Source: Paucibacter sp. TC2R-5
GTDB taxonomy: Bacteria > Pseudomonadota > Gammaproteobacteria > Burkholderiales > Burkholderiaceae_C
Direction of reading: 5' to 3'
NCBI RefSeq assembly: GCF_025717605.1
Contig: NZ_JAJIRQ010000005.1
Coordinates: 1-64,000, forward strand
Length of the DNA: 64,000 bases
The translations under genes and the position numbers were made by a program. Shown here in pieces: positions 47,147-51,446 of this stretch (its first letter is position 1; each line of letters begins with the position of its first letter). The notes beneath the pieces are model-generated. The model made no database searches. It was given only the letters and a program-made list of their open reading frames with translations, and was not told the DNA's origin.

Positions 47147-48205
47147 TCAAGCCCGAGTAGGAGGCAGGATGAGTCCCTCGTGCACGGCTATATGGGCCAG
47201 AGCGGCTTCAAAGCTGGCGCGCGCCTCGGCGGCCACGCAGCGCAAATAACGGTGTAGTTGTGCGTCGGCCGGGCTGCGGTCCTCGCACTCGGCGCTGTAG
47301 GCCTCAAAGTGAGTGAGTTGCAGCAGCAACTCGGCCACATGGCGTGGGCATTCGCAGGCGACGGTGGAGGACAGGCTGGCGAAATCGTTCAGCGCCGCAT
47401 CATCCCAGCGCCGCGCCGGTATCTGGCTGCCGGCCTCTGGCAGCGGCTCGCGCGTTCCGTCGGGGCCAGCAGCTGCAAGGCCGCTCAAGCTGCCCGTCAT
47501 GACATTCATTACGCCGCCCAGCCATTGCCCCAGCGTGCTGTCATTTTGCGGCTCGCGCAGCAGCGCCTTGCCGGCCCCGGCCAAGCCTTCGCAGTGGCTC
47601 TCGCTGGCAAAACGGTAGAGCAGCGCCATGGGCAAGCTCGCCAAGCTCGGCGCCGCCGCTTGCAGCTCGCTGGGCCAAGTCTCATGCAGCCTAGCCTGCT
47701 GCAGCAGCAAGAGATCTACCGGCTGGCCCGCCAAGGCGGCCTGTGCCTGCGCGGCGTCTTCAAACGGACCCAGCCATTGCACCGGCCGGCCCAGGCCGCG
47801 CAGCAAGGCGGGGGACTGCAGGCGGGCGGCCAGCGCCTTGCCGATGACTGCGACCCGCAAGCTGGGCCGCTTTGCTGCTGATGCGCGGCCATCAAGCCTA
47901 GCGCGAGCCGGCTGCTTGTCGGCCAGGGCGCCGGCATGCGTGGCGGCGACGTCTTGCAGCTGCTGCTGACTCAGCGCCGCCAAGCTGCCGATGGCGTGAC
48001 CCAGATCGCTCAAGCGCTTCAACAAAGACAGGTGTTGGACATCGGCGGCCGTGTACAGGCGCTGCCCGCTGGCACTCAGCTCCACCTGCGTGAGTCGGTA
48101 GCGACGCTCCCACACCCGCAGCGTAGCCACTGGCATGCGCAGCATGCGGGCGACCGCGCCGCTGCGATACCTGACCGCTGCCTCCGGTGACTTGCTTGGC
48201 TTCAT
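47147..48205 (-). CDS. MerR family regulator with helical Cys-containing C-terminal domain
   Basis: This 352-residue regulator has an N-terminal MerR winged helix (residues 12-80, with VATLRVWERRY and AADVQHLSLLKRLSDLG). A Rossmann-like middle (115-235) resembles a degenerate cobalamin-binding fold, without the DxHxxG cobalamin-ligand motif. The C-terminal helical domain has C284 and C286 (CECPRH), C307 and C323. The organisation is reminiscent of CarH/LitR light regulators that lost B12 binding, so it may sense redox or an iron-sulfur cofactor instead. It is divergent from the HiPIP-photolyase operon, which it probably controls. The ATG at 48205 starts just before the HTH. Confidence 0.82.
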   Translation of the reverse strand: MKPSKSPEAAVRYRSGAVARMLRMPVATLRVWERRYRLTQVELSASGQRLYTAADVQHLSLLKRLSDLGHAIGSLAALSQQQLQDVAATHAGALADKQPARARLDGRASAAKRPSLRVAVIGKALAARLQSPALLRGLGRPVQWLGPFEDAAQAQAALAGQPVDLLLLQQARLHETWPSELQAAAPSLASLPMALLYRFASESHCEGLAGAGKALLREPQNDSTLGQWLGGVMNVMTGSLSGLAAAGPDGTREPLPEAGSQIPARRWDDAALNDFASLSSTVACECPRHVAELLLQLTHFEAYSAECEDRSPADAQLHRYLRCVAAEARASFEAALAHIAVHEGLILPPTRA

Positions 48206-48228
48206 GCCCGCATTGTGCGTGAAGAGTG

Positions 48229-48288
48229 TTTGACGCCAATTAGCGGAGGTGATTAGTCGGGATTGAAAGATTTGACGATAGTTTGACT
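48229..48288. promoter_or_regulatory. Direct TTTGAC repeats between the MerR gene and the HiPIP operon
   Basis: TTTGAC occurs at 48229-48234, 48271-48276 and 48282-48287. TTGA also occurs at 48263-48266, so the last three copies are spaced 9 and 11 bases apart. Direct repeats of about 11 bases are typical operators of CarH/LitR-type MerR regulators. The copies could also serve as -35 elements. The assignment rests on pattern only. Confidence 0.35.
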
Positions 48289-48364
48289 CGAAAGAGCCTA
48301 TCCTGCGAAGCAGAGGCAAGGGTCCTCTGAATCACCCTCATTAGCCATCGCAAGGAGTAACCCC

Positions 48365-48676
48365 ATGACTCAATTGATCCAACGCCGTGTTTTTCTGATG
48401 ACCGTCGCCGCCTCCACCGCGGCCCTCGGCACCAGCGCCGCTTTCGCGCAGGCGATGGTGGACGAAAAAGACGCCCAAGCCGCAGCGCTGGGCTATGTGG
48501 CCGATGCCAAGCGCGTCGACGCGAAGAAGTTCCCCAAGTTCGCCGCAGGGCAAAACTGTGCGAGCTGCGCCTTGTATCAAGGCAAGGCCGGTGACAAGGC
48601 CGGTGGCTGCCCGCTGTTTGCAGGCAAGCAAGTGGCCGCAGCCGGTTGGTGCAGCGCCTGGGCCAAGAAGGCCTGA
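48365..48676 (+). CDS. High-potential iron-sulfur protein with Tat signal
   Basis: This 103-residue protein has a twin-arginine-type leader (QRRVFLM, cleavage near AQA) and a mature HiPIP fold. The four cluster cysteines are C65, C68, C82 and C96 (NCASC, GGCPLF, GWCSAW), the standard C-x2-C-x13-C-x13-C spacing for a [4Fe-4S] electron carrier. HiPIPs usually shuttle electrons in the periplasm. The ribosome-binding site AAGGAG lies upstream of the ATG. It heads the photolyase operon, an unexpected partner because the photolyase acts in the cytosol. Confidence 0.95.
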   Translation: MTQLIQRRVFLMTVAASTAALGTSAAFAQAMVDEKDAQAAALGYVADAKRVDAKKFPKFAAGQNCASCALYQGKAGDKAGGCPLFAGKQVAAAGWCSAWAKKA

Positions 48677-48707
48677 TCAGCGCCGCGACGCTAGCGCCCT
48701 TGTTGCC

Positions 48708-48902
48708 GTGAACGCTGACTCTCAATCGTTTCGTGGCAACAAGGCGGCGCTGCCGTCCAAGCCCTGCCTGGGCTGCGCGCGCCCCATGACTTGGCGCAAG
48801 TGTTGGGCCAAGAACTGGGCCGAGGTCAAGTATTGCTCCGACGCCTGCCGCCGGGGCAAGGTTCCAAAGGGCAAGCAGGGCAGCAAGGCCCTGCATGGCT
48901 GA
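48708..48902 (+). CDS. DUF2256 zinc-finger-like small protein
   Basis: This 64-residue protein, starting at GTG, contains C20, C23, C32, C43 and C47 in the DUF2256 pattern (SKPCLGC, RPMTWRKCW, VKYCSDAC), likely a zinc ribbon. Such genes are very often next to cryptochrome/photolyase genes. It ends with a basic KGKQGSK tail. Its stop codon lies inside the photolyase start region, overlapping by 8 bases, which implies translational coupling. An upstream in-frame start cannot be excluded. Confidence 0.85.
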   Translation: MNADSQSFRGNKAALPSKPCLGCARPMTWRKCWAKNWAEVKYCSDACRRGKVPKGKQGSKALHG

Positions 48903-50466
48903 GCTGCGCACGCTGGTGCTGGTCCTGGGTGACCAGTTGGACCTGGACGCCGCCGCCTTCGACGGCTTCGATGCCGCGCAAGACGCGGTTTGGATGGCCG
49001 AGGTTGCGGACGAGTCCACGCACATCGCATCCGGCAAGCCGCGCATCACGATGTTTCTGGCAGCGATGCGGCATTGCGCCCTCGCCCTGCAAGAGCAGGG
49101 TCGCCCGCTGCATTACATGCGCTTGGAGGATCCCGGCAACGCCGGTAGTTTGGCCGCGCAACTGTTGGCCGATGTGGCCCGCCTGAAACCCAGCCGCTTG
49201 CTGATGACGGCGCCCGGAGATTGGCGCGTGCTGCAAGCGCTCAAGGCCGCCGCTCAAAGCTGCGGCTTGGCGCTGGAGATCCGCGAAGACCGGCATTTTT
49301 TCAGCAGCGTGCGCGAGTTTGCCGAGCATGCGCGCGGGCGCAAATCGCTGCGTATGGAGTTCTTCTACCGCGAGCAGCGCAAAAAGCACCAGATCCTGAT
49401 GGACCCGGCGCAGGCCGGCTCGCCGCTGGGTGGGCAATGGAATTTTGACGCCGAGAACCGCGCCGCCTTCGGCGCCGAGGGGCCGGGGCTGTTGCCGACA
49501 CGCAGCCGCTTCGAGCCCGATGAGATAACGCGTGAAGTGATCGCGCTGGTGGAGCGCCGCTTTGCCCATCACCCGGGCAGCTTGGCGAGTTTTGCCTGGC
49601 CGCTGACGCGTGCGCACGCGCTGCAAGCCTTGCAGGCCTTCATCAGCGAGCGCCTGCCGCTGTTTGGTCGCTATCAGGACGCGATCTGGCCCGGCGACCC
49701 CTGGCTGTATCACGCACACCTGTCGGCCGCGCTCAACCTCAAGCTCTTGAATCCACGCGAGGTGGCGGCGGCGGCGGTCGCCGCTTACGAGGCCGGTCAG
49801 GCGCCCTTGGCGAGTGTGGAGGGCTTTGTGCGGCAGATTTTGGGCTGGCGCGAATATGTGCGCGGCGTTTACTGGACGCAGATGCCGGGCTATCTGGAGC
49901 TCAATGCGTTGGGGGCCGAGCAAGAACTGCCGGCCTGGTACTGGACTGGCGCCACCGACATGGCTTGCTTGCGCGACGCCATCACGCAGACCTTGACGCA
50001 GGGCTATGCCAACCATATCCAGCGGCTGATGGTGACCGGCGGCTATGCGCTGATGCTGGGCGTCAGGCCGCAGGCCGTCCACGCTTGGTATTTGGCCATG
50101 TACGTGGATGCGGTGGAATGGGTGGAGTTGCCCAACACCCTGGGCATGAGCCAGTATGCCGACGGCGGTTTGATGGGCAGCAAGCCCTATATCGCCACCG
50201 GCAAATACATAGACCGCATGAGCCCGCATTGCAAAGGCTGTCGCTACGACCCGGCCCAGCGCACCGGCGACAAGGCATGCCCTTACACCACGCTTTACTG
50301 GGATTTTTTGATGCACCACGAGACGGCCATGGCCAATAACCCGCGCATGGCGCTGCAGGTCAAGAACCTCGCGCGCCTGAGCGCCGAAGAGCGTGCAACT
50401 GTACAAGCCCGGGCCGACGCGATTCGGCGCGGCGAAGTTGGAGCGCTCCCCAATGCCTTGGATTGA
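48895..50466 (+). CDS. Iron-sulfur (6-4) photolyase / FeS-BCP cryptochrome
   Basis: This 523-residue protein is a photolyase-related flavoprotein of the bacterial iron-sulfur branch (PhrB/CryB type), repairing (6-4) photoproducts with blue light or acting as a photoreceptor. It opens with the Rossmann strand LVLVLGDQLDLD. The four [4Fe-4S] cysteines are C358, C446, C449 and C462, with spacing 88-3-13, identical to Agrobacterium PhrB (C350, C438, C441, C454). The FAD-binding helical part contains GGLMGSKPYIATGKYIDRM. It overlaps DUF2256 by 8 bases and is followed by the DCC-type oxidoreductase. Confidence 0.95.
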   Translation: MAELRTLVLVLGDQLDLDAAAFDGFDAAQDAVWMAEVADESTHIASGKPRITMFLAAMRHCALALQEQGRPLHYMRLEDPGNAGSLAAQLLADVARLKPSRLLMTAPGDWRVLQALKAAAQSCGLALEIREDRHFFSSVREFAEHARGRKSLRMEFFYREQRKKHQILMDPAQAGSPLGGQWNFDAENRAAFGAEGPGLLPTRSRFEPDEITREVIALVERRFAHHPGSLASFAWPLTRAHALQALQAFISERLPLFGRYQDAIWPGDPWLYHAHLSAALNLKLLNPREVAAAAVAAYEAGQAPLASVEGFVRQILGWREYVRGVYWTQMPGYLELNALGAEQELPAWYWTGATDMACLRDAITQTLTQGYANHIQRLMVTGGYALMLGVRPQAVHAWYLAMYVDAVEWVELPNTLGMSQYADGGLMGSKPYIATGKYIDRMSPHCKGCRYDPAQRTGDKACPYTTLYWDFLMHHETAMANNPRMALQVKNLARLSAEERATVQARADAIRRGEVGALPNALD

Positions 50467-50499
50467 AGCCGACCTGGTGCTCGCTGGCGAGGTGTCAGC

Positions 50500-50925
50500 A
50501 TGGTGAATCCAGTAACCACGAGCCCCACTGATAGGCCACTGACCGTGCTCTATGACGGCGCTTGCCCGCTGTGTCGACGCGAGATTGGGGTCTATCAGGG
50601 CTTACAAGCGAGTGAGCCTGTTTGCTTTGCCGATGTCAGCGATGCGGCCGCCATATTGCCGCCTGGCAGCACGCGTGAGCAACTGATGGCGCGCTTTCAT
50701 GTGCAGGCCGCCGATGGCCGCTTGCTCAGCGGCGCGCAGGCGTTTCTGGCCTTGTGGGCCACGCTGCCGGGCTGGCGCTGGCTGGCCAAGCTGGGTCAGG
50801 TGCCAGGTCTTGCCTGGGTGATGGAGCGGGCGTATCGTGGTTTCCTGTATCTGCGACCGGCTCTGCAGCGGGTCGCCAGACGTTTTGACGCCGCCTCAGC
50901 AAGGGCAAACTTCAAGGAGGATTGA
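50500..50925 (+). CDS. DCC-family thiol-disulfide oxidoreductase (DUF393)
   Basis: This 141-residue protein has the conserved DGACPLC motif that names the DCC family (DUF393), in the context VLYDGACPLCRREIG. Its fold is predicted to be thioredoxin-like, and the catalytic cysteines are in a C-P-L-C arrangement. A partner is unknown. It lies 33 bases after the photolyase and 3 bases before the Cys-rich miniprotein gene, within the same operon. Confidence 0.9.
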   Translation: MVNPVTTSPTDRPLTVLYDGACPLCRREIGVYQGLQASEPVCFADVSDAAAILPPGSTREQLMARFHVQAADGRLLSGAQAFLALWATLPGWRWLAKLGQVPGLAWVMERAYRGFLYLRPALQRVARRFDAASARANFKED

Positions 50926-50928
50926 GCC

Positions 50929-51099
50929 ATGAACGAAGACCCTCGCTGCTGCGGCAGTGGCACTTGCATCATCGATCCGGCGGGCCGCTGCTGGTGCGGC
51001 CAGCAATGGGATGGGCAGAAAATGAGCGCTGTGCCGGCCGTTCAGCCAGACCGGGCCGAGCCCATGGCGCTAGCCTCAGCTAAGGAACAAGCCCCATGA
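50929..51099 (+). CDS. Cys-rich miniprotein
   Basis: This 56-residue protein has five cysteines near the N-terminus: C7, C8, C13, C21 and C23 (RCCGSGTC and GRCWCGQ). The rest is a flexible Ala/Pro-rich tail. It has no signal peptide. The pattern suggests a small metal- or cluster-binding peptide, but I recognise no family with certainty. It starts 3 bases after the DCC gene with AAGGAGG upstream, and its stop overlaps the next gene's ATG as ATGA, so a real translated gene is well supported. Confidence 0.8.
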   Translation: MNEDPRCCGSGTCIIDPAGRCWCGQQWDGQKMSAVPAVQPDRAEPMALASAKEQAP

Positions 51100-51446
51100 A
51101 CTGGCTGAACAAGCTCCCCGGCTTCCAGCGCAGCCCGCCCGGCCTTGAATGGACGCTCTGGCAACACTTGCCCCGCATTCTCTGGGTCGGCACCGTGATC
51201 CCGGGTCTGCTGGCGCTGGCCTGCTGGTGGGCGGTGCCCGATCAGCTGACATCGGCCGCAGACCGCGATTTGTTGCTGACCAGCTACCGGTTGATGGGTT
51301 TGGTGATGCTGCACTGGACGCTGGTGCTGACGGTCGGCATCGGCTGCGTGCTGGTGATGGTGATGAAGGGCCCGGCCTATGTGGCCGACGCCTACCCGCC
51401 GCCGGAGCGCGAGGGCATCGACGACGAGCCGGGACGCGAGGCTTAG
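51096..51446 (+). CDS. Small membrane protein of the photolyase operon
   Basis: This 116-residue protein has two predicted transmembrane helices (about residues 29-48 and 69-90) and charged tails, ending in an acidic segment. I do not recognise its family. Its ATG overlaps the stop of the Cys-rich miniprotein, and its own end overlaps the eutC stop by 4 bases in convergent orientation. Its place at the end of the redox operon suggests membrane-coupled electron flow, but this is inference. Confidence 0.75.
   Translation: MNWLNKLPGFQRSPPGLEWTLWQHLPRILWVGTVIPGLLALACWWAVPDQLTSAADRDLLLTSYRLMGLVMLHWTLVLTVGIGCVLVMVMKGPAYVADAYPPPEREGIDDEPGREA

Follow-up and report, generated by a model that had tools for sequence, protein, structure and literature searches.

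What places a high-potential iron-sulfur protein (HiPIP), best known as an electron carrier, in one operon with a DNA photolyase? The question is raised by a locus in the first 64,000 nt of contig NZ_JAJIRQ010000005.1 of Paucibacter sp. TC2R-5 (the whole of this stretch is hereafter the window). Here six closely packed plus-strand genes encode, in order, HiPIP, a DUF2256 protein, an iron-sulfur (FeS) photolyase, a DCC1-like thiol-disulfide oxidoreductase (DCC), a Cys-rich miniprotein and a small membrane protein, and a gene for a MerR-family regulator diverges from them (Table 1). All seven genes listed in a preliminary description of this DNA, with HiPIP leading the operon, are real, with small corrections to their coordinates. 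On balance, the locus is probably a photorepair operon that is inducible by light or photo-oxidative stress, is controlled by a class III LitR-like MerR repressor and carries a co-induced periplasmic electron carrier. It is most readily understood as a variant of the LitR-type light regulons. The following were read directly from the sequence and are described below: gene order, domains, operator repeats, a gene remnant and a Tat-like motif.

Through its relatives, the regulator points to light. It resembles a MerR protein encoded on a Burkholderia anthina plasmid over its whole length (132 identities in 346 aligned positions, 38%), whose gene is surrounded by genes for a sigma-70-family factor, GTP cyclohydrolase I, cyclopropane synthase, DUF1365, DUF2256, DUF2878 and a photolyase. 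A similar Caballeronia protein adjoins folE and a sigma-70-family factor gene. Class III LitR light regulators are found in such a folE/sigma-factor/cfa/photolyase neighbourhood; litS, folE2, cfaB and phrB2 are reportedly genes of B. multivorans. Pfam matches only the helix-turn-helix (HTH) domain of the window protein, and the best NCBIfam match, a partial one over the HTH, is CarH. The B12-binding domains PF02607 and PF02310, expected of class I LitR/CarH, were not matched by Pfam; like class III LitR, the protein joins a LitR/CarH-type HTH to a C-terminus other than an AdoB12-binding domain. Class III LitR of Burkholderia shows light-dependent absorption, its way of sensing light appears novel, and in Pseudomonas LitR controls phrB, cryB and other genes (PMC9758184, available in part). 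The B. anthina plasmid (L160:1-17333) was typed as conjugative, and its LitR-type light cluster includes lipocalin, cyclopropane synthase, DUF2256, GTP cyclohydrolase, sigma factor and photolyase genes. The Paucibacter genome encodes a second LitR-type MerR protein, with a B12-binding_2 domain (L167:6765-14302, G000:C43), divergent from glutathione peroxidase, amine oxidase, DUF1365, cyclopropane-synthase and MFS genes.

In a structure predicted from 34 sequences (pLDDT 87, pTM 0.51), the regulator has an HTH followed by a B12/CheY-like alpha/beta domain, and it ends in helices. By E-value its top matches in the PDB are Thermus thermophilus CarH (E 9e-7, at the low TM-scores weighed below). 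The helical end holds a CECPxH...C...H set in which C284, E285, C286, C307 and H318 are present in all 53 aligned proteins and H289 in 52 of them; the alignment holds full-length-type proteins selected on likeness outside the HTH, with eight HTH-only matches left out. In the model, C284/C286/H289 lie towards one end of a long helix (286-307) and C307/H318 towards the other, so that a single shared site within the monomer seems doubtful. This near-invariant Cys/His set provides named residues to probe and is the most interesting lead from the locus.

Between the divergent genes lies a putative operator of two 11-bp direct repeats, an arrangement also found in CarH operators. The strict form of the pattern, framed after the intergenic sequences had been inspected, recurs in 13 of 36 MerR-divergent regions, compared with a mean of 0.01 and a maximum of 1 in 100 shuffles. 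A -10-like element stands at the repeat-linked distance in 16 of these 36 regions (shuffle mean 0.28, maximum 2). TGAMTC sites at the 53-bp spacing seen in the window also occur in L049, L053, L071, L075 and L091. Together, the MerR protein with its CarH-like HTH, the adjoining photolyase and DUF2256 genes and the direct-repeat operator are shared with LitR/CarH regulons (class III in Burkholderia, class II in Pseudomonas). The window differs from these in its compact, HiPIP-led operon and in the absence of folE, cfa and sigma-factor genes from it.

The photolyase belongs to the FeS-BCP/CryPro group of prokaryotic (6-4) photolyases, which includes PhrB of Agrobacterium, CryB of Rhodobacter and Cc(6-4)PL. 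It has a DPRP domain and aligns with PhrB nearly end to end (4dja; residues 6-512, E 7e-155), and is probably a cytosolic, cluster-bearing enzyme acting on (6-4) photoproducts. Unlike PhrB, it has Asn aligned with the first His of the HHIQRLM segment, a position we take to lie near the active site, and its operon partners also differ. The claim that its four Cys are spaced as in PhrB holds: they are residues 358, 446, 449 and 462 (spacing 88-3-13), where PhrB binds its cluster through Cys 350, 438, 441 and 454 and the family rule places Cys1 and Cys2 86-89 residues apart, followed by Cys2-x2-Cys3 (PMC3204975, available in part). A literature search did not find a photolyase paired with DUF2256. 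Five loci titled Microbacterium (L112, L114, L115, L116, L119) encode FeS photolyases 67-68% identical to that of the window, with no HiPIP, gene X (see below) or LitR-like match in the fetched flanks; transfer between phyla is possible.

A gene is missing from the window operon. A second photolyase-like gene (X) follows the FeS photolyase gene in 51 of the 86 relatives whose flank is long enough, and it separates photolyase and DCC genes in 19 of the 21 loci with DCC downstream. The window lacks X, though a 39-nt remnant encoding ADLVLAGEVSAW and a stop runs, in the X frame, through the 33-nt gap into the start of DCC. It resembles the X C-termini of relatives (e.g., AADLLAVNEVPAW and a stop), with the same stop/start overlap. 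This 3′ remnant of a deleted gene, overlooked previously, marks the operon as derived, an instance of the loss of a second photolyase-like gene from a recurrent photorepair operon. The tight packing noted in the preliminary description is partly due to the deletion. Relocation of X elsewhere in the genome was ruled out, since a PF03441 search gave a single FAD_binding_7 hit, a 506-aa open frame at C1:328037 with the sequence of a classic photolyase.

In relatives (L049:9559-10764 and 30 more aligned loci), X encodes a photolyase FAD-binding domain, followed in a predicted model (AF2 pLDDT 89, pTM 0.90) by an alpha/beta domain. This order is the reverse of that in classic photolyases, and going solely by the modelled domain order X may be circularly permuted. 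The best Foldseek match of the model is the classic photolyase 1iqr (244 alignment columns of 402 residues, E 9e-8, TMq 0.45), and profile comparison of the X C-terminus with classic photolyases supports the second domain weakly (E 0.18). A literature search combining photolyase, circular permutation and FAD-binding domain found no such case, and none of the matches listed for circularly permuted photolyases was on topic by title.

How regularly the other genes accompany FeS photolyases was assessed in 91 non-redundant loci, comprising the best 80 of 592 matches and 11 further loci, with nine duplicates dropped; the sample is therefore biased to close relatives. Denominators are loci with enough flank, and partial hits were dropped, including rows for MerR (8), DCC (4), X (8) and the membrane protein (1), many of them at the ends of contigs, so neighbour counts are on the low side. 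DUF2256 lies upstream of the photolyase in 64 of 90 loci, a divergent MerR gene in 35 of 78 (42 of 82 counting partial hits) and an FAD amine-oxidase-like gene upstream in 12 of 81. In 22 of 86 loci, whose titles name several genera, HiPIP stands upstream in the same orientation as the photolyase; L065 and L123 (2/91) have it nearby in another orientation. DCC adjoins the photolyase in 33 of 91 loci (downstream 21/77, upstream 12/82), the miniprotein in 8 of 73 and the membrane protein in 5 of 71. The full gene set of the window recurs in one locus of the 91 (L049, Paucibacter sp. B2R-40). The association that had been proposed for HiPIP and the last three genes therefore stands for HiPIP and DCC, whose recurrence makes an operon-level association real. 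These two belong to a recurrent, variable operon, and the miniprotein and membrane protein are mostly local additions.

HiPIP is identified by PF01355 and four Cys ligands and is the only PF01355 match in the genome. A Tat-like motif, RRVFLM, was read in its sequence by inspection, and with this signal the protein should be exported to the periplasm. In domain, Cys ligands and Tat-like signal it is like the periplasmic HiPIP carriers of purple bacteria such as Rubrivivax and Roseateles depolymerans, a hip gene being reported for the latter (PMC10037100, available in part). Unlike the purple-bacterial setting, the gene sits in a photorepair operon; a role as reaction-centre donor was ruled out because PF00124 was not matched anywhere in the Paucibacter genome. 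The operon thereby offers a setting for HiPIP outside photosynthesis. On a HiPIP tree, the operon-linked proteins group without forming one clade: 23 linked rows give 6 label changes, compared with a shuffled mean of 14.9 and none of 500 shuffles as low, a clustering inflated by related rows. The largest clade holds 11 linked proteins among 12 rows (support 100/99). The tree leaves out 5 of 35 HiPIP matches, which had no locus, and L065 and L123 were placed in neither group. None of the literature matches listed for HiPIP in a light-induced or photooxidative-stress role was on topic by title.

DCC is assigned by a PF04134 match above cut-off. The membrane-protein gene comes directly after HiPIP in G003, G007, G009 and G015; it follows DUF2256 in G008 and G011 and the miniprotein in G018. 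In a sample of 150 genomes from the family, HiPIP lies within 5 kb of the membrane protein in 4 of the 32 genomes having the latter (G000, G009, G165, G430; read by eye from search tables), and in G165 an FAD_binding_7-type match on the other strand lies between them. A family-wide pair is not borne out by this count. The pairing is recurrent but not general, and among the genomes examined tight pairing is a feature of the same genus (G003, G007, G009, G015). Three of 15 further membrane-protein loci are near an FeS photolyase (G430, G393, G351), of which G430, on a contig as long as that of L055, is probably not independent of the latter. Homologues of the membrane protein also occur upstream of genes for DUF1924, dihaem cytochrome c and cytochrome b561 (L201, L203; G019, G030).

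We propose the following mechanism for this presumably non-phototrophic member of the Burkholderiales. In the dark, the MerR repressor would occupy the 11-bp direct repeats of the intergenic region. Its release from this operator would follow from light, or from stress that light causes, as suggested by its LitR relatives. The derepressed operon would then supply the cytosolic FeS photolyase for (6-4) photoproducts and its usual companion DUF2256. HiPIP, probably exported, and the small membrane protein could form a co-induced electron-transfer module at the periplasmic face, and DCC may serve redox upkeep. HiPIP would be co-regulated with the photolyase and not wired to it. Several points weigh against this proposal. 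Induction and co-expression of the operon are what we infer from sequence, and the light-sensing step is drawn by analogy. Full-length likeness to Burkholderia LitR is judged from the B. anthina protein. The CarH matches of the regulator model have low TM-scores (0.20-0.26 of the query; 0.21 at rmsd 18.5), because the domains cannot be superposed together, and at its pTM the domain arrangement is unsure. For the B. anthina sigma factor, a search of the Paucibacter genome run without a control turned up no relative. Besides the post hoc framing of the repeat, its strict form is absent from 23 of the 36 MerR-divergent regions and the core operator motifs are unmatched in 18. A minority of photolyase loci have HiPIP where it stands in the window (64 of 86 are without it), whereas the family often has a HiPIP (69 of 150 genomes).

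These last two counts also suit the view that HiPIP, DCC, the miniprotein and the membrane protein share a neighbourhood but no role, with HiPIP an ordinary respiratory carrier placed by chance and inherited with the operon. So do the rarity of the miniprotein and membrane protein and a survey of 59 related genomes, in which 26 have the photolyase, 23 HiPIP and 19 both; the two are adjacent in 7 of the 19 (read by eye) and apart in 12, some of these genomes being fragmented. The recurrence of HiPIP upstream in one orientation across loci titled as several genera, and the clustering of operon HiPIPs on the tree, speak against this view, which seems unlikely. Highly improbable is the supply chain of the preliminary description, in which HiPIP, DCC, the miniprotein and the membrane protein would feed electrons or a [4Fe-4S] cluster to the photolyase. 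Its genes are tightly packed, and the cluster of a prokaryotic (6-4) photolyase is HiPIP-like in EPR; the same source, however, calls the cluster elusive in function and rates direct cluster-flavin transfer as negligible (PMC12082625, available in part). Moreover, HiPIP bears a Tat-like signal, most of the examined FeS photolyase loci lack HiPIP, miniprotein and membrane protein, and HiPIP and the membrane protein occur together away from the photolyase. To call the locus a new functional unit was likewise too strong, as a LitR-type light regulon accounts for the grouping.

The regulator could instead sense redox state, a metal or an iron-sulfur cluster through its CxCx2H...C...H residues, the operon then responding to metal or oxidative stress, with light acting on it only indirectly. 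The near-invariance of these residues and the lack of a B12 domain in Pfam favour such a sensor, which nonetheless appears unlikely given the light-regulon setting of the MerR relatives, the doubtful single site in the modelled monomer and the light-dependent absorption described for class III LitR in the partial text cited above. A further idea is tentative and rather on the unlikely side: the light response may be iron-sulfur- or metal-based at both ends, with the repressor sensing light or photo-oxidation via CECPxH...C...H in a C-terminal domain unnamed in Pfam, and the operon coupling the cytosolic FeS photolyase to a periplasmic HiPIP-membrane-protein electron module in a bacterium that lacks photosynthesis.

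Table 1. Features of the Paucibacter sp. TC2R-5 photorepair locus (window positions).
Feature	Position	Strand	Remarks
MerR-family regulator, class III LitR-like	47147..48205	-	HTH, B12/CheY-like alpha/beta domain, helical C-terminus with C284-x-C286-x2-H289, C307, H318 (domains partly from predicted model)
MerR-proximal half site TTTGACGCC	48229..48237	+	53 bp from operon-proximal site
Putative operator, two 11-bp direct repeats TTTGACGATAG/TTTGACTCGAA	48271..48292	+	
-10-like TATCCT	48299..48304	+	Recurrent distance from repeat
HiPIP	48365..48676	+	Tat-like signal QRRVFLM; Cys 65/68/82/96; PF01355
DUF2256 small Cys protein	48708..48902	+	GTG start; Pfam
FeS (6-4)-type photolyase (FeS-BCP/CryPro)	48895..50466	+	DPRP; four cluster Cys
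3′ remnant of gene X (ADLVLAGEVSAW, stop)	50468..50506	+	Overlaps DCC start
DCC1-like thiol-disulfide oxidoreductase	50500..50925	+	Pfam
Cys-rich miniprotein, 56 aa, 5 Cys	50929..51099	+	
Small membrane protein, 116 aa, two hydrophobic segments	51096..51446	+	

Pfam assignments carry E-values of 1e-12 (MerR_1), 6e-25 (HIPIP), 1e-18 (DUF2256), 2e-73 (DPRP) and 9e-25 (DCC1-like); the miniprotein and membrane protein had no Pfam match above cut-off. A scan found no sigma70-consensus promoter, and terminator-like sites numbered 4, compared with a shuffle mean of 3.1. From HiPIP onwards, successive genes are separated by a 31-nt gap, an 8-nt overlap, gaps of 33 and 3 nt and a 4-nt overlap. Downstream, eutC is convergent, with a 4-nt overlap between its stop and the end of the membrane-protein gene.

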